From Planctomycetota bacterium (GTDB taxonomy: Bacteria > Planctomycetota > JAJSAM01), in the NCBI GenBank assembly GCA_025459285.1, contig JALOQY010000003.1:1-40330 (forward strand): DNA of 40,330 nucleotides, in the 5' to 3' direction. Made by a program: the position numbers and the translations under genes. The notes under the pieces are model-generated. The model had not been told where the DNA came from. It saw nothing but the letters and a program-made list of their open reading frames with translations, and did no database searches. This document shows, one piece after another, positions 2,050 through 37,435 of this stretch (position 1 is its first letter; each line of letters begins with the position of its first letter).

Positions 2050-3138
2050 ATGCTCCTCAGGAATCTCAAGGCCGTGAACTTCCTCTGCCTGCGCGAAGTC
2101 GATGTGCGGAACATCCCGCGGCGCGGAGTGGTGGGGATCGAAGTTCCGAAACATGGGGACCGGTCCGACTTCCGGGCTCTTCTCTCCTACGCCTTGTTTG
2201 GCGCGACCAGCGTTCCGGGTCCCGTGGTCCGGCCCGGGTCATCGTTCGCCTACGTCGAGATCGAACTGCTGCACGCTGCGGCCGGGGCGGTGTCGATCTT
2301 CCGGGGGACGGACCGGAACGGCGCCGAGCAGGTTTCGCTGCGGGAGTCGAACCAGGGCACGATCCTCCGTCAGCCCGGATCGGTGGAGGAGCGCGTCCGC
2401 GGCCTGCTCCCGTTGTCTCCTTACCGGTTTTCGACCGAGTACCTTGGTGCGGCGATCGAAGGTCGCCAGCCGGATGAAATCCACCGACCGCCGGAGGAGA
2501 GCGACCAGGGGCTGGCGGGGCCGGAAGAGGGGTACGAGAGACCCCGAGAGGTGGAGCCCGCCGCCCAGGCTGTGCCCACCCCCGACCGGACCTCCGGGAC
2601 CCTGATCCTCGCCATCGTATTCTCCGGTCTGGCCCTCCTGCTCTTCGCCTTGCTGTTCGCCGCCCGTTGGACCATGGGCACCGGCACACCCTTCGTGGCG
2701 GTGGCCCAGGTGCTGGTAGGCATTCTGGTCGTGTTCAACGCCTGGATGGCGGTGCGGGAATGGCGCCGTCCGGAGCCCGTCGCTGCTCGGGGTTCCGGGG
2801 AGGAGTCGGCCTTTCCGCAGGAGCCCGGGAGTCCATCCTCTTCCGAGTCTCCCGCCGCGCCACCCGAGGCTCCCGCGGTGGCGATTCCGGCGGAAGATGG
2901 ACTGGCCCCCGATGTCGTCCGGGATCTCGGGAGTCTTGGCAACCCCGAGGACACGCGGTTCCTCGTTCTCTCCGGCCGCTGGTCCGGGGACGCGGCGGAA
3001 CTCCTGCGCTGTGCCGGGCCGTCCGTATCCCAGGTGATCCTGCTCACGTCGGCGGGCGGAACGCCCCCCGGGAGCGACATGCGACTGTCGGTGGAGGAAG
3101 CGACCGGCGGCGGATGGCGCCTGACCCTCGCGCACTGA
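2050..3138 (+). CDS. SbcC/Rad50-like N-terminal domain lacking Walker A, fused to two TM helices
   Basis: MLLRNLKAVNFLCLREVDVRNIPRRGVVGIEVPKHGDRSDFRALLSYALFG resembles the SbcC N-terminus; TM hairpin LILAIVFSGLALLLFALLFAA...VAVAQVLVGILVVFNAWMAV. Confidence 0.6.
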   Translation: MLLRNLKAVNFLCLREVDVRNIPRRGVVGIEVPKHGDRSDFRALLSYALFGATSVPGPVVRPGSSFAYVEIELLHAAAGAVSIFRGTDRNGAEQVSLRESNQGTILRQPGSVEERVRGLLPLSPYRFSTEYLGAAIEGRQPDEIHRPPEESDQGLAGPEEGYERPREVEPAAQAVPTPDRTSGTLILAIVFSGLALLLFALLFAARWTMGTGTPFVAVAQVLVGILVVFNAWMAVREWRRPEPVAARGSGEESAFPQEPGSPSSSESPAAPPEAPAVAIPAEDGLAPDVVRDLGSLGNPEDTRFLVLSGRWSGDAAELLRCAGPSVSQVILLTSAGGTPPGSDMRLSVEEATGGGWRLTLAH

Positions 3139-3159: not shown

Positions 3160-3226
3160 GTTATCAGCGGCCCGTCGGGGCCGAGGACGATCTCTGCGGT
3201 GCGACCCTCTTTCTCCTTCAGGTTGC
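3160..3226 (+). repeat. R1 palindromic 3'-end element, copy 2 (decayed arms)
   Basis: CCGTTATCAGCGGCCCGTCGGGGCCGAGGACGATCTCTGCGGTGCGACCCTCTTTCTCCTTCAGGTTGCC aligns to the other copies; approximate ends. Confidence 0.65.
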
Positions 3227-3243: not shown

Positions 3244-4950
3244 TCAGGCCGGGTCCGGGTCTGCCCGGAGGGCGGTGGCCGCCGCCTGGCGGACCATGGG
3301 CGACGGGTCGGACATCGCCCGGTGGATCTCCTCGAGACCTTTGGCGCTCCTCCGAATGGCGAGCGCGGTCACCGCGCAGGCTCGGATCTCCGCGGATGCC
3401 TGCCTCCGCAATATCGTCCGCCGTCGCACCGCTCGAAGGAGGAAGTCCTCGCTCGTACGGTCCTTCGCCCGGCCCAGGGCCAGGAGGATCCCGCGCTTCT
3501 CGAAGTAGTCGCGGGACGGGAAGTCCGCAGCCTCGACGATCCGGAGCAGGGCGTCGCGGTATGACGCGGGTGGCAGTCCCTCCAGCGTGCCGATCGCGAG
3601 GAGCCGGGTGTCCTGGTCCGCCGATAGGAGTGCCTCGCGGATGAAGGGGAAAGTGTCCTCGGTGCCCACACGGCGAAGGAGCCGGAAGGCCTCCCTGCGT
3701 ACATCCATCTCCGGATGGCGTATGAGCACCCGGAGCGCGGACAGCAGTTCCGGTCCCGGGTGGCTCCCGAGTGAGGGCAGGATCCGAAGGAGGATATCGG
3801 TGGGGATTCCCGGGTCGCAGAGCCGAGCGAGCAGCACCGGCGTGGAGCCGCCCCCCCCTCGCCTGAGCAGTTCGAAACCGGCAATCCGCGTGGCCGGGTC
3901 CTGAAGGAGGGTCTCGACCGCCTCCGCGGACCGCGGGCCGAGCATGGCGATCACCTCCGCCAGACGGTCGAGGTCCTCGGGACGGACCCGTCCGAGGTAG
4001 GGGTTGACCGTCGCGATCAACTGGCCCGGATCGATCGTCGCCAGGGCTTCCGCGACGGCCGTCCGGGTCCCGGCCGAGCAGCACTGCGCGAGGAATCCGG
4101 CAATCTCCCGCGCGAGGCCGGCAGCGGCGCGGAAGCCCCCTTCGGAGAGGAGTGCCATGACCGACCGGGTGAGGATTCCGAGGATCTCCGCGGCCTCGGG
4201 CCCCGGACTGTGCTCCGCAAGGGGGAGAGCGAGCCCGGCGAGTTCGCGGAAGAGATCACGGTTCTTCTCCTCCAGGACGAGGTCGTCGACGCGCCGGCGC
4301 TCGGACTCCGACACGTGGAAGAGGGTCGCGAACCGACCATCGGCGCTCGCGGCCTGGGCCATGAGCCGGTCGAGCATCGGCTTGACGGTGGACCGCAGGG
4401 AGGTCGCGGGTTCCTCGCTGGTCCGCCCCTCCGTCAGGAACCGATCGAACTCCGAGCGGTCCGCATCCTCGAGGAAGTCCTCCAGGACGATGAAGTTGAT
4501 GGAGGTGAAGTCCTTCTCCCAGAGAAGGCTCAGGAGGTCGTCCACCGGGGTGCGGGTTCGGAGTGTGCGGTGCAGCACGAGGCAGAGATCGAAGACCTCC
4601 GTGGCCGGCACGCCTCGGCAGAAGGCGATTTCGCGCACGCCGTGGATGAAGAGCCGGAAGGCGAATCCCTCGTCGCGGTCCAGGCTCTCGTACACCGTGG
4701 TGCCGCGGAACGTGATCCGTCCCTGGGCCACCCGAAAGACCAGTTCGGTCTCCGTCTCGAGGATGCGCCCGAGTTCGCGGTGGAACTCGGCAACGGCGGA
4801 CCGGAGGGTCGGGTGGTCTTCGGTATAGAGCCGGAATGCCTTCAGTGTCCGCTGGAAGGCGACAATGAGCGCCGCCACCCGCGCCATCTGCGGTGCGCTG
4901 GTCTCGTCGTCACTGACGGCCGGGGGGATCGCCATGGGAGGCTGGCTCAT
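3244..4950 (-). CDS. HEAT-repeat protein
   Basis: 568 aa; C-terminal repeats such as LLSALRVLIRHPEMDVRREAFRLLRRVGTEDTFPFIREALLSADQDTRLLAIGTLEGL. Confidence 0.8.
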   Translation of the reverse strand: MSQPPMAIPPAVSDDETSAPQMARVAALIVAFQRTLKAFRLYTEDHPTLRSAVAEFHRELGRILETETELVFRVAQGRITFRGTTVYESLDRDEGFAFRLFIHGVREIAFCRGVPATEVFDLCLVLHRTLRTRTPVDDLLSLLWEKDFTSINFIVLEDFLEDADRSEFDRFLTEGRTSEEPATSLRSTVKPMLDRLMAQAASADGRFATLFHVSESERRRVDDLVLEEKNRDLFRELAGLALPLAEHSPGPEAAEILGILTRSVMALLSEGGFRAAAGLAREIAGFLAQCCSAGTRTAVAEALATIDPGQLIATVNPYLGRVRPEDLDRLAEVIAMLGPRSAEAVETLLQDPATRIAGFELLRRGGGGSTPVLLARLCDPGIPTDILLRILPSLGSHPGPELLSALRVLIRHPEMDVRREAFRLLRRVGTEDTFPFIREALLSADQDTRLLAIGTLEGLPPASYRDALLRIVEAADFPSRDYFEKRGILLALGRAKDRTSEDFLLRAVRRRTILRRQASAEIRACAVTALAIRRSAKGLEEIHRAMSDPSPMVRQAAATALRADPDPA

Positions 4951-7300: not shown

Positions 7301-7552
7301 ATGCGACGCTTCTGCATCGCCCTGGCCGGCGCTCTCTTCCTCGCGGGCTGCATGAGTGCGCCCACGCCCCTGACGGAGAACATGTTCGAGGACGATGGTC
7401 TGCCCGAGCGGCCCGATCAGTTCCTCGGGAACATCCGGCACGCGTTCTCGGACCACGTGGATGACTGCGTGGTGGGCCTCTCGTTCACCTCGCGATCCAT
7501 CTCCCGCGGCATCGCCGCGGACTGGGAGCGCTTCTCGCGGACGCTGGATTAG
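7301..7552 (+). CDS. Small putative lipoprotein
   Basis: MRRFCIALAGALFLAGC lipobox; 83 aa; TAG stop lies in the R1 element arm. Confidence 0.65.
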   Translation: MRRFCIALAGALFLAGCMSAPTPLTENMFEDDGLPERPDQFLGNIRHAFSDHVDDCVVGLSFTSRSISRGIAADWERFSRTLD

Positions 7553-7612
7553 CCGCCTGTCGGGGCCAGGGACGATCTCTGCGGTGCGACCCTTTACCCC
7601 GACGGGCTGCTA
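7550..7612 (+). repeat. R1 palindromic 3'-end element, copy 3 (best preserved)
   Basis: TAGC-C-GCCTGTCGGGG ... CCCCGACGGGC-T-GCTA, near-perfect 16-bp arms around core CCAGGGACGATCTCTGCGGTGCGACCCTTTA. Confidence 0.85.
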
Positions 7613-17074: not shown

Positions 17075-19271
17075 CTAGTCTCGATTTCCACAGGAAGCCA
17101 ATCGCTAACGCCCGGTCCCGGGTGGCATGCCTGCCGTCCGCCGCACATTCGTCCCACTGCGGCCTGACCGCCGCTGCCCACGCGCATCTCGGGGGGTCAC
17201 CGCATTCCAGCGACGGTTTTGACCACGCGGTTCGTTGCCTCCAGCGTTGCCATAATACGGTACTGATGCTGTAGAGTGAAGGGGTCAGATGCTTCCTGGC
17301 TCGCGCCTCATCTTGCCGCTATCGCTGGGCTTGGCCCTGCGGAGGGCGCGTGGACATAGCACAAGGTGATGGGGTTCGTCCGATTTTCTCCACAACCGGC
17401 TTGACTTTCCTTCTATATGTGGCATTATGTGGGTGTGGCATACAGTCATGGAAAGCAGATAACAAACGCCTCCCCCGAAGCTCGGTTCTTCCTCTCTCCC
17501 GACAAAGCCCTCCACCGCCAGTACGAAGCGCTCCGCGCCTACTTCGTCGAGGACCTTTCCTCTCCCGATGTCGCCCGGCGCTTCGGCTACTCCCCGGGCG
17601 CCTTCCGGGTCCTTTGCACCCGCTTCCGCCAGGAACCCGAGAAGTCCGACCGGTTCTTTCGGGCCGTGCAGCGCGGACCGCAGTCCTCCCCCCTCCGGGA
17701 CAAGCTCCGAGAGACGATCATCGCCCTCCGGAAGAAGAACCTCTCCGTCTACGACATCCAGAGGGAACTGGGGGAGGCCGGCAAGGAAGTCAGCATCAAC
17801 TTCCTTGCCATCCTCCTGCGGGAAGAGGGCTTCGCCCGCTTGCCCCGCCGGCGAGACGACGAACGGCCGGAGATCGTCAGGCCGGCGAGGGCCGCCGTCG
17901 CCGACGTGAGGGAGCTGGATCCGTCTCCCCGGTCTTTCCATACCTCCTTCGCCGGGCTGTTCCTCTTCGCCCACCTCCTCGAGGGGTTCGACCTCGGGGC
18001 CCTCGCTACCGGAGCGGACCTGCCGGGATCCTCGATGATCCCCGGAGAGCAGGCACTCCGCTGCGCTCTGGCCTTGAAGCTCGTGGGTACCGAGAGGAAG
18101 AGCCACATCATGAGCCACGTCCTCGACCAGGGGCTCGCCCTCTTCGCCGGGCTCAATGCCATCCCGAAGCGCTCCTGGTTCGCCACCTACAGCTCGCGTC
18201 TCGGAAGCCTGAAACTCAAGAAGCTCATGGATCTCTGGTTCGACCAGGCTCAGGCTGCCGGAGTCAGGCGAAGCGGGTCGTTCGACCTCGACTTCCACTC
18301 CGTCCCGGCCCACACCGAGAAGGAGCCCCTCGACACGAGCTACGTCTCGCAGCGGAGCCGCAGGGAGAAGTCCGTCCTCGTCTTCCTCGCCCGTGATGCA
18401 GAGGAGCGGATCCTCTGCTACTCCAACGCCGCGATCCCGAAGTCCCGGCGGGCCGGCGAGATCATCGAGTTCGCGGAGTTCTACAAGAAGCGCACCGGCA
18501 GCTACCCGCGGGAACTCGTTTTCGACTCACAGCTCACCACGTACCCCTCGCTCGACTGGCTGAACAAGAACGGGATCACCTTCCTGACCCTCCGCCGCCG
18601 CACCAGGAAGATGCTCAGCTGGCTCTACTCGCTTCCTCCGTCGATGTGGAAGAAGGTGACCCTCGAAGCCCTGACGAGGAAGTACCGTACGCCGAAGGTT
18701 CTCGAGGAAATGGTGGGCCTCAAGGGCTACGAGGGGGAGGTCCGCCAACTCTCCATCGTGGATCTCGGACACGAGGAGCCCACGGTCCTTCTCACGAACA
18801 ACCGCAAGGAAGGGCCGCCGGCGCTCATCACTCGCTACGCGCATCGGATGCTCATAGAGAACGGGATCGCCGAGGCCATCCACTTCTTCCATTTGGATGC
18901 CCTGAGCTCGATGGTGGAACTGAAGGTCGACTTCGACCTGCAGATCACCCTCATGGGAAGCACGCTCTACCGGATGCTGGCCTGCCGGTTGCCGGAGAAC
19001 TACCAGCGGGCCCACGCCAAAACGATCTTCGAGAACCTCCTCGCAGTGGGAGGCAAGGTGGACGTCGGCGAGCAGCGCGTCGTGGTGACGCTCGACCACA
19101 AGGCGCACAACCCGATCCTCGCCGAGACCGGACTTCTCGACCGCCCGACCCGGATGCCCTGGTTCTACGGACGGGAACTCGTGCTCCGGCTCAAGTAGGT
19201 AACCCCACCATCCGGCTCATCCACCGCGCTCAATCGTTAGCGCAATCCGGTAGCGTGGAAATCGAGGCTAG
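17075..19271 (+). mobile_element. Insertion sequence with imperfect TIRs and CTAG flanks
   Basis: Left TAGTCTCGATTTCCAC (17076-17091) plus CGCTAACG (17103-17110); right reverse complement TAGCCTCGATTTCCAC (19270-19255) plus CGCTAACG (19242-19235); CTAG at 17075-17078 and 19268-19271. Confidence 0.65.
17417..19198 (+). CDS. DDE-type transposase with N-terminal HTH region
   Basis: SSPDVARRFGYSPGAFRVLCTRFR HTH-like; GSFDLDFHSVPAH, ELVFDSQLTTY and RMLIENGIAEAIHFFHLDALSSM consistent with D, D, E positions. True start may be downstream of 17417. Confidence 0.85.
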   Translation: MWHYVGVAYSHGKQITNASPEARFFLSPDKALHRQYEALRAYFVEDLSSPDVARRFGYSPGAFRVLCTRFRQEPEKSDRFFRAVQRGPQSSPLRDKLRETIIALRKKNLSVYDIQRELGEAGKEVSINFLAILLREEGFARLPRRRDDERPEIVRPARAAVADVRELDPSPRSFHTSFAGLFLFAHLLEGFDLGALATGADLPGSSMIPGEQALRCALALKLVGTERKSHIMSHVLDQGLALFAGLNAIPKRSWFATYSSRLGSLKLKKLMDLWFDQAQAAGVRRSGSFDLDFHSVPAHTEKEPLDTSYVSQRSRREKSVLVFLARDAEERILCYSNAAIPKSRRAGEIIEFAEFYKKRTGSYPRELVFDSQLTTYPSLDWLNKNGITFLTLRRRTRKMLSWLYSLPPSMWKKVTLEALTRKYRTPKVLEEMVGLKGYEGEVRQLSIVDLGHEEPTVLLTNNRKEGPPALITRYAHRMLIENGIAEAIHFFHLDALSSMVELKVDFDLQITLMGSTLYRMLACRLPENYQRAHAKTIFENLLAVGGKVDVGEQRVVVTLDHKAHNPILAETGLLDRPTRMPWFYGRELVLRLK

Positions 19272-19282
19272 CCCGTCTCTCA

Positions 19283-19470
19283 CCGGGCTTGTACTACACA
19301 CCCTCCAAGTCCCCGCGCCGCTCGCAGAATTCGCGTGAGCGAGCGCCGCAGGCGCCCGCCGTCGCAGGCCGCGAGGAGGGGGAGGCCGCGTGCAGCGCGG
19401 CCGACGTGGAGGAGGATCTGCCTTCCCCGCCATCAAGACAGTGCGGGCGCGGCCGTCGCAAACCGGGTTG
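19283..19470 (-). repeat. R2 structured intergenic repeat, copy A
   Basis: Minus strand CAACCCGGTTTGCGACGG...GGCAGATCCTCC...GGCGGGCGCCTGCGGCGCTCGCTCACGCGAATTCTGCGAGCGGC...TAGTACAAGCCCGG aligns end to end with 29766-29950. Confidence 0.8.
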
Positions 19471-19534
19471 CGGGTTGGAAGTGACCTCCCGACCGAACGA
19501 GCCGGAGAGAGCGACGGCGGCGATGATCACGCTC

Positions 19535-29097: not shown

Positions 29098-29382
29098 ATG
29101 GCCCTTCGACGAAACCTGCACGTGCTGCTCGATGACGACCTCCACCGTCGACTCCACGGTGTGGCGGAGCGGAAGGGGGAGCCCGCGACGGTGCTGGCCC
29201 GGGAAGCGATCCGCCGCTGGGTGGAGGACGCGGAGCGCGCCGCCCTCCGGGAGGAGATCTCGGCCTATGCCGCCGCCGTGGCGGGCACGGAAATGGACCT
29301 CGACGCGGATCTGGAGACGGCGGCGACGGAGTCCCTGCATGATGAGACGGAAAGCCCGCCCGCACGCCGGAGGAGGCAGTGA
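29098..29382 (+). CDS. Ribbon-helix-helix antitoxin-like protein
   Basis: RRNLHVLLDDDLHRRLHGVAERKGEPATVLAREAIRRWVEDAE; overlaps the MazF-like start (GTGA). Confidence 0.8.
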   Translation: MALRRNLHVLLDDDLHRRLHGVAERKGEPATVLAREAIRRWVEDAERAALREEISAYAAAVAGTEMDLDADLETAATESLHDETESPPARRRRQ

Positions 29383-29723
29383 GAAGGGGGGATGTCTGGT
29401 GGGCGGCGCTCGTCCCGCGCTCGGGATCCGAACAGCGTGGGGAGCGGCCGGTCATCGTGGTCTCCCACGACGGATTCAACGAGACGCCCGGGTGGCGGTC
29501 CGTCGTGGTGGTTCCCCTCACGACCTCCGCGCGCCGGGCCCGGGGCCGGACGGCGGTGGCTCTTCCGGCGGGGGCGGGGGGACTGCCGGCCGACAGCACG
29601 GCGCTCTGCCACCAGGTCACCACGCTCGACCGGACGAAGCTGACGCGGTGTCTGGGGAGCCTCGACGGGGAGTGGATGGCCGGTATCGGTCGCGGGCTGC
29701 GGGCGGCGCTCGACCTGGGGTGA
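29379..29723 (+). CDS. MazF/PemK-family toxin
   Basis: MRRGDVWWAALVPRSGSEQRGERPVIVVSHDGFN...VVVVPLTTS...ADSTALCHQVTTLDRTKL. Confidence 0.9.
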   Translation: MRRGDVWWAALVPRSGSEQRGERPVIVVSHDGFNETPGWRSVVVVPLTTSARRARGRTAVALPAGAGGLPADSTALCHQVTTLDRTKLTRCLGSLDGEWMAGIGRGLRAALDLG

Positions 29724-29765
29724 ACGACGCGGATCTCCGGCCCGTTCACGGCGCGGGCACGCCCT

Positions 29766-29950
29766 CAACCCGGTGGCGACGGGCGGCGCCCGCGATGTCC
29801 ATGATGCGGGGGAGGCAGATCCTCCCCCGCGTCGGGGGCCAGCGGCCCCCTCGCCCTCCTCGCCGCCTGCGGCGGCGGGCGCCTTCGGCGCTCGCTCTCG
29901 CGAAATCCGCGAGCGGCTCGAAGATTCCGAAGGTCTGCAGTACATCCCGG
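29766..29950 (+). repeat. R2 structured intergenic repeat, copy B
   Basis: CAACCCGGTGGCGACGG...GGGGGAGGCAGATCCTCCCCC...GGGGGCCAGCGGCCCCC...GGCGCCTTCGGCGCTCGCTCTCGCGAAATCCGCGAGCGGC...CAGTACATCCCGG. Confidence 0.8.
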
Positions 29951-35482: not shown

Positions 35483-35557
35483 CGCCCGCTCCGCGCCCCC
35501 CGAAACCGCTTCTCCCTACCGGGCCCCCCGCCCCCGGAGCGACCGGGGAGAATTGCC

Positions 35558-35596
35558 CCGGAAGAATTGCTCAGAGCAGATTTCCCAGCCCTGGGA
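35558..35596 (+). repeat. Direct repeat R3, copy 1
   Basis: CCGGAAGAATTGCTCAGAGCAGATTTCCCAGCCCTGGGA. Confidence 0.75.
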
Positions 35597-37062: not shown

Positions 37063-37075
37063 CGGCGCGCCAGGC

Positions 37076-37114
37076 CCGGAAGAATTGCTCTGAGCAGATC
37101 TTCCACCCCTGGGA
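37076..37114 (+). repeat. Direct repeat R3, copy 2
   Basis: CCGGAAGAATTGCTCTGAGCAGATCTTCCACCCCTGGGA. Confidence 0.75.
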
Positions 37115-37204
37115 GCGGCCCTGGGCCTGTTTTCCGGTCGGGGTTCGCTTCGCGGGGGGCGGGGCTTCCGATAGCATTCGCGCGTTCTTTGCTCTCATGG
37201 ACGA

Positions 37205-37366
37205 GGCACGCGGGTCTGCGCGAGCAGATCATAGGGAAGGTGGTGAAAAGCCACCGCGGACCCGCCGCTGTAACCGGGGACGAAAGCCGCAAAGCCCACT
37301 GATCGCGAGATCGGGAAGGGGCGGCGAGTAGGAGGATCCGGGAGCCAGAAGACCTGCCCGCGTGCC
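37205..37366 (+). promoter_or_regulatory. Cobalamin (AdoCbl) riboswitch
   Basis: GGGAAGGTGGTGAAAAGCCACCGCGGACCCGCCGCTGTAACCGGGGACGAAAGCCGCAAAGCCCACTG...GGGAAGG...AGCCAGAAGACCTGCC; outer stem GGCACGCGGG / CCCGCGTGCC. Confidence 0.95.
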
Positions 37367-37435
37367 GCAGCGAAACGGTCCCGGGGAACGGACCAGGCTT
37401 GCACCTCGATTCCCGGGTCCGGTCACGGGGTCTTC

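Follow-up and report, generated by a model that had tools for sequence, protein, structure and literature searches.

Results

Two copies of a multi-hairpin repeat in the window

The window, a stretch of 40,330 nucleotides at the start of contig JALOQY010000003.1 (assembly GCA_025459285.1, Planctomycetota), contains two copies of a repeat, here named R2, which face in opposite directions (Table 1). As the first-pass annotation had claimed, copies A and B can be aligned over the stretch that it gave, and they share 80% identity in a genome search with copy A; its extent of about 187 bp was too short, since the family measures ~196 bp. The perfect stems that it had assigned to copy B belong to copy A, and several of them are imperfect in copy B, which is also degenerate over its 5' ~14 nt. 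Each copy lies 3' of a same-strand gene, the neighbours being a mazF-like gene and an SBBP/Ig protein gene.

Table 1. Coordinates of R2 and of other features in the window
Feature	Position	Strand	Description
R2 copy A	29747..29944	+	Full length, about 198 bp; ends placed by aligning about 40 genomic copies, the flanks of which are unrelated; covariance-model match 29748-29944, 187.5 bits
5' hairpin	29747..29799	+	ACAGCGCGGGC/GCCCGCGCTGT type, some mismatches in copy A; from alignment and consensus fold
Hairpin 2	29806..29830	+	GCGGGGGAGG-CAGAT-CCTCCCCCGC; shared core begins
Hairpin 3	29834..29850	+	GGGGGCC-AGC-GGCCCCC; sequence variable among copies, pairing retained
Pyrimidine linker	29851..29860	+	TCGCCCTCCT in copy A; usually TCCCCCTCCTCG
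Hairpin 4	29861..29877	+	CGCCGCC-TGC-GGCGGCG; one pair doubly changed from C-G to G-C, U-A at a second pair
Hairpin 5	29879..29891	+	GCGCC-TTC-GGCGC; shared core ends
Hairpin 6	29897..29913	+	CTCGCG-AAATC-CGCGAG
3' tail	29914..29944	+	Ends GCAGTACA; consensus AGTAGTACA
R2 copy B	about 19290-19475	-	HMM match, HMM positions 15-197; reaches 19493 under the covariance model, 122 bits
RelB-like antitoxin gene	29122-29382	+	Weak NCBIfam match
MazF/PemK-like toxin gene	29379-29723	+	Weak NCBIfam match, strong Pfam PemK match
IS1380-like transposase gene	17429-19198	+	Large gene, weak match; its end and copy B's 3' end are 91 bp apart
GCAGCCCGTCGGGGCCGAGGACGATCTCTGCGGTGCGACCC-type repeat	3163-3208, 7548-7593	+	83-89% identity among copies
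GCAGCCCGTCGGGGCCGAGGACGATCTCTGCGGTGCGACCC-type repeat	126-178	inverted	As above
40-bp repeat, CCCGGAAGAATTGCTCWGAGCAGAT...	35557-35596, 37075-37114		90% identical; internal palindrome
Cobalamin riboswitch	37195-37375	+	Rfam RF00174, 115.6 bits

Copy A is directly preceded by the toxin-antitoxin pair listed in Table 1. The IS1380-like transposase gene beside copy B, for which terminal inverted repeats are not obvious, is probably a chance neighbour. Two further short repeats and a cobalamin riboswitch also lie in the window; a sequence similar to the GCAGCCCGTCGGGGCCGAGGACGATCTCTGCGGTGCGACCC-type repeat is found in the 3' flank of an R2 copy elsewhere (L032).

R2 is a high-copy intergenic repeat with sharp ends

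With copy A as the query, about 40 further places were found in the window's own genome (G000, a draft of 5.0 Mb in 534 contigs), with E-values down to 1e-64 for the other copies. A covariance model built from 32 R2 copies, the E-values of which are rough owing to a short calibration, gave 38 matches in the same genome at a cutoff of 100 bits, and 67 when the cutoff was lowered to 41 bits. The first-pass annotation had called for such a search of the genome and its relatives, and had named a lack of further copies, or homology with a protein gene in decay, as speaking against its reading; neither was found, and the repeat also occurs in other Planctomycetota.

The copies are intergenic and contain no open reading frame. 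Together with their flanks they can be aligned over ~196 bp, after which similarity stops abruptly on both sides and the flanks are unrelated. The ends are sharp (CACAGCGCGGGC...AGTAGTACA, with CACAGCGCGGGCACGCCCGC at the 5' end and AGTAGTACA as the 3' consensus), and only a weak base preference extends beyond them. NCA is present at both ends; when the aligned G000 copies were examined for target duplication, non-consensus ends matched in only two of them (L019 and L070), and no certain duplication was found. R2 also has no terminal inverted repeat, as CACAGCGC... at one end and ...AGTAGTACA at the other do not match as reverse complements. GTAG occurs near the 3' end. Some copies are truncated: four have lost the 5' part and kept the 3' end (L017, L036, L039 and L040), and two have lost the 3' part (L024 and L027). 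Copies that end in TTCA instead of TACA (L019 and L026 in G000, L072 in G001) overlap a stop codon. The genes that flank R2 copies are ordinary, with no excess of transposases.

A ~90-nt core is shared by repeats with different ends

The part of R2 from hairpin 2 to hairpin 5, a core of ~90 nt, consists of a purine hairpin with a conserved GA loop, a variable hairpin, the linker CCCTCCTCG and two further hairpins. A scan of 85,462 species genomes with the core pattern GGGGAGGNNGAYCCTCCCCN{18,44}CCTCCTCG returned 45 stretches, 44 of which lie in five Planctomycetota MAGs (JAOZQC GMC4, SXIK F1-120, SIAI Baikal-deep-G170, JACRLW NC_groundwater_1891 and JAFGKN Zod_340). The remaining, archaeal match (L177, Bathyarchaeota) was dismissed as chance, the rest of the core being absent. 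The carriers are therefore six drafts: G000, G001 (GMC4), G135 (F1-120), Baikal, NC_groundwater and Zod. With a model of the core, matches were obtained in five of the 392 genomes sampled from the phylum and not in G002, which belongs to a different genus of the window's family. The pattern had no match in viral contigs, and plasmid, phage and viral collections likewise gave no match. The distribution of the core is patchy.

G001, which represents another genus of the window's family, has the whole R2 element, ~76% identical to the G000 copies and at different places. In at least four other genomes (G135, Baikal, NC_groundwater and Zod) the core lies inside repeats with different ends. The 5' hairpin is still recognisable in the Baikal element, the 3' end of which is CTAGTAGCTCAG; G135 has two core families, with the terminal inverted repeats TATACC/GGTATA and TATACTCC/GGAGTATA; the Zod element has the terminal inverted repeats GGCGTGGTTCA/TGAACCACGCC; and the NC_groundwater element contains TTGGAAACACCG modules. 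Among several of these end-different families the core is almost letter-for-letter equal. It is a module of several end-different families that has probably moved from genome to genome and combined with different ends, although its near identity could instead reflect strong function.

The core fold is conserved between lineages, and standing copies drift

R2 folds into six hairpins, the first of which contains an inner GCCCG/CGGGC. The pyrimidine linker of the family is CTCCCCCTCCTCG; its segment CCCTCCTCG is invariant in 22 core sequences from the six genomes, and 12 of 13 linker positions show a conservation of 0.92-1.0 in G000. In that genome, stems have a mean conservation of 0.95 and other unpaired positions 0.81, with the linker and the hairpin-2 loop highest. 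Six copies (L031, L032, L034, L038, L041 and L042) have an extra hairpin-forming insert of ~60 bp inside hairpin 3. A GC-rich multi-hairpin insert of ~110 bp occupies the same position in three G135 core copies (L142, L143 and L147).

Hairpin 2 and the linker are also compatible with a triplex, in which the linker CCCCCTCC would lie along the purine arm GGGGGAGG as a third, parallel strand. The run lengths of the two are associated (Fisher P 0.004), largely within one subfamily, with L023 and L001 as exceptions to the pattern; the linker as a third strand on hairpin 2 therefore stays a suggestion.

The stem cells of the G000 copies comprise 8 compensatory against 109 mismatched ones (24 G-T, 21 A-C and 64 other), so individual standing copies drift with few compensations. 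As G-T mismatches are about as frequent as A-C mismatches, standing copies give no sign of selection for RNA of one strand. Between genomes, in contrast, both sides changed at 7 of 29 pairs of the 22 core sequences, and 93.5% of core cells can pair, where shuffling leaves 89.4% and sliding the structure no more than 63%; the structure was derived from these same sequences, and related rows are not independent. In this comparison the predicted core fold is kept between lineages by compensatory changes, and a role for the folded strand, as RNA or as single-stranded DNA, may thus exist in the active element.

These observations bear on whether R2 copies are structured-RNA genes or parts of 3' untranslated regions, each acting as RNA in stability, termination or regulation. 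Such a role would agree with the compensatory changes in the core, with its invariant loop and linker, with the strong folding of copy A (z about -3 to -4 relative to shuffles) and with the position of both window copies 3' of same-strand genes. However, that position, which the first-pass annotation had pointed out, does not extend to the family: gene orientation around the 29 scorable copies is random (9 -/-, 7 -/+, 7 +/- and 6 +/+, with genes called by a custom codon-based finder). The fold of copy B is no deeper than that of shuffled sequences (z -1.6 and -0.1), Rfam gave nothing relevant to R2 at the gathering score or, for copy A, at E-values up to 5, and a simple consensus scan of copy A revealed no promoter- or terminator-like site. 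Together with the mismatch counts, these results make it improbable that standing copies act as RNA, and the structured noncoding RNA that the first-pass annotation had offered as one candidate finds no backing in them.

Differing sites in related genomes suggest mobility

The searched relatives yielded no exact empty site; their intergenic DNA is too diverged, and comparison was therefore limited to presence or absence near orthologous genes. At the aroB locus both G000 and G001 have an R2 copy, in opposite orientation: it is 80 bp away and inverted in one genome and 5 bp away in the other. A copy upstream of the branched-chain aminotransferase gene in G000 is absent there in G001 and G002. 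Of the 12 Baikal elements, 9 terminate precisely at the TGA with which a convergent gene stops; random cutting of genes would place about one third of them there (P 0.004). CTCAG is found at both ends of the Baikal elements and could represent a duplicated target or a recombination core. At three Baikal loci (L255, L256 and L257) the core element contains, close to its 3' end, a second, nested MITE-like element with the terminal inverted repeat TGTGATTCACGC; an apparent 4-bp CTAG duplication can be seen at L257.

Candidate mobilising enzymes

Neither an autonomous partner nor a mobilising enzyme was found in the carriers, although their draft state weakens each absence, and none of the loci inspected held a parent autonomous transposon with R2 ends. 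Y1_Tnp, RVT_1 and IS110 were each rejected as a common mobiliser, as each was absent from several carriers and the inspected loci were without copies, apart from one contig. On that contig, an RVT_1 gene (L202) lies several hundred bp from the 3'-only copy L039. IS110 (DEDD_Tnp_IS110) was not found in three of the six carriers, and the IS110 loci inspected lack the core motif; the adjacent DEDD_Tnp_IS110 gene of an IS110/IS1111 bridge-RNA element is thus not seen beside R2 in these loci. The single Y1 transposase gene of G000 (L081, C321) is flanked by a short repeat of its own, at about 2890-3060 and 4310-4380, the translated ends of which share GEKVRTSP and which is distinct from R2.

R2 could in principle consist of REP-like sequences moved by a Y1 transposase of the RAYT type, or of retroelement-like repeats (SINE-like, or derived from a retron or group II intron) spread by reverse transcription. 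Intergenic, high-copy palindromes, GTAG near the 3' end and the single Y1_Tnp gene that G000 and G001 each possess are in keeping with the former. But no inspected Y1 gene is flanked by R2, half of the carriers (G135, which is 96% complete, NC_groundwater and Zod) gave no Y1_Tnp match, and the GTAG of R2 differs from that of GTAG-tagged REPs (PMC3733652) in not forming the 5' base of a short hairpin; a Y1-driven origin is accordingly very doubtful. Reverse transcription is harder still to credit. Copies that have lost the 5' part and kept the 3' end would suit it, as would a core that stays the same while heads and tails differ, but other copies lack the 3' part, and RVT_1, the reverse transcriptase that a retron or group II intron derivative would lead one to look for, was present in only one of the six carrier drafts (G000).

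Discussion

R2 is likely to be a mobile palindromic DNA element of ~196 bp and high copy number, which is non-autonomous and is moved by an enzyme acting in trans. The mobile palindrome, the other candidate of the first-pass annotation, is favoured by the number of copies, by their sharp ends between unrelated flanks, by insertions that arose independently in two genera and by the patchy distribution; the interpretation given in that annotation is therefore partly supported. The enzyme would copy or move R2 into intergenic sites, and would probably recognise the hairpins as a single strand together with short end sequences, such as the NCA at both ends. We found no description of the repeat in the open-access literature; R2 is real, mobile-looking and, as far as we found, undescribed.

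Prokaryotic MITEs such as Chunjie, QMITE2 and ERIC (reviewed in PMC10969869) are among the closest known kinds of element. Like these, R2 is shorter than 500 bp, free of open reading frames, intergenic and present in tens of copies, with stem-loops, truncated copies and nesting, and with ~196 bp and 38-67 dispersed copies it lies within the usual MITE limits (50-500 bp, no open reading frame, multi-copy, dispersed). Unlike MITEs, R2 is GC-rich, has no identified parent transposon and shares its core with end-different families; terminal inverted repeats are lacking in R2 and present only in the related G135 and Zod core families. REPs, defined as single hairpins of 20-40 bp with a GTAG or CGTC tag at one end, are known with their BIME arrangements and RAYTs from Planctomycetes as well (PMC3733652). 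R2 resembles REP/BIME sequences in being a dispersed, intergenic palindrome with several families per phylum, but it is about five times longer and has six hairpins. By analogy, R2 may work like a MITE or a REP-like non-autonomous element, although it has neither the inverted repeats of formal MITEs nor the REP/RAYT features that were tested.

The relation between core and ends has a parallel in architecture, with no homology claimed. The CORE-SINE families of eukaryotes have a conserved central domain, and their heads and tails differ by lineage. R2-related families likewise keep the core and differ in their ends; unlike CORE-SINEs, R2 is bacterial and gives no sign of reverse transcription. 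We tentatively propose, as a possibility that we hold with clearly less confidence than the mobility of R2 itself, that the core may be an independent folded-strand module, a putative recognition site for a trans-acting enzyme or host factor, which moved between Planctomycetota lineages and was joined to mobile elements that differ in their ends; this would be a bacterial equivalent of the modularity of CORE-SINEs, with precise placement at stop codons in at least one lineage.

If this is true, Planctomycetota would have a mobile repeat system made of a shared folded core and interchangeable ends. The search target for the mobilising enzyme would then be a gene present in all six carriers and absent from non-carriers, and insertion at stop codons would allow the repeat to multiply with little burden on its host.
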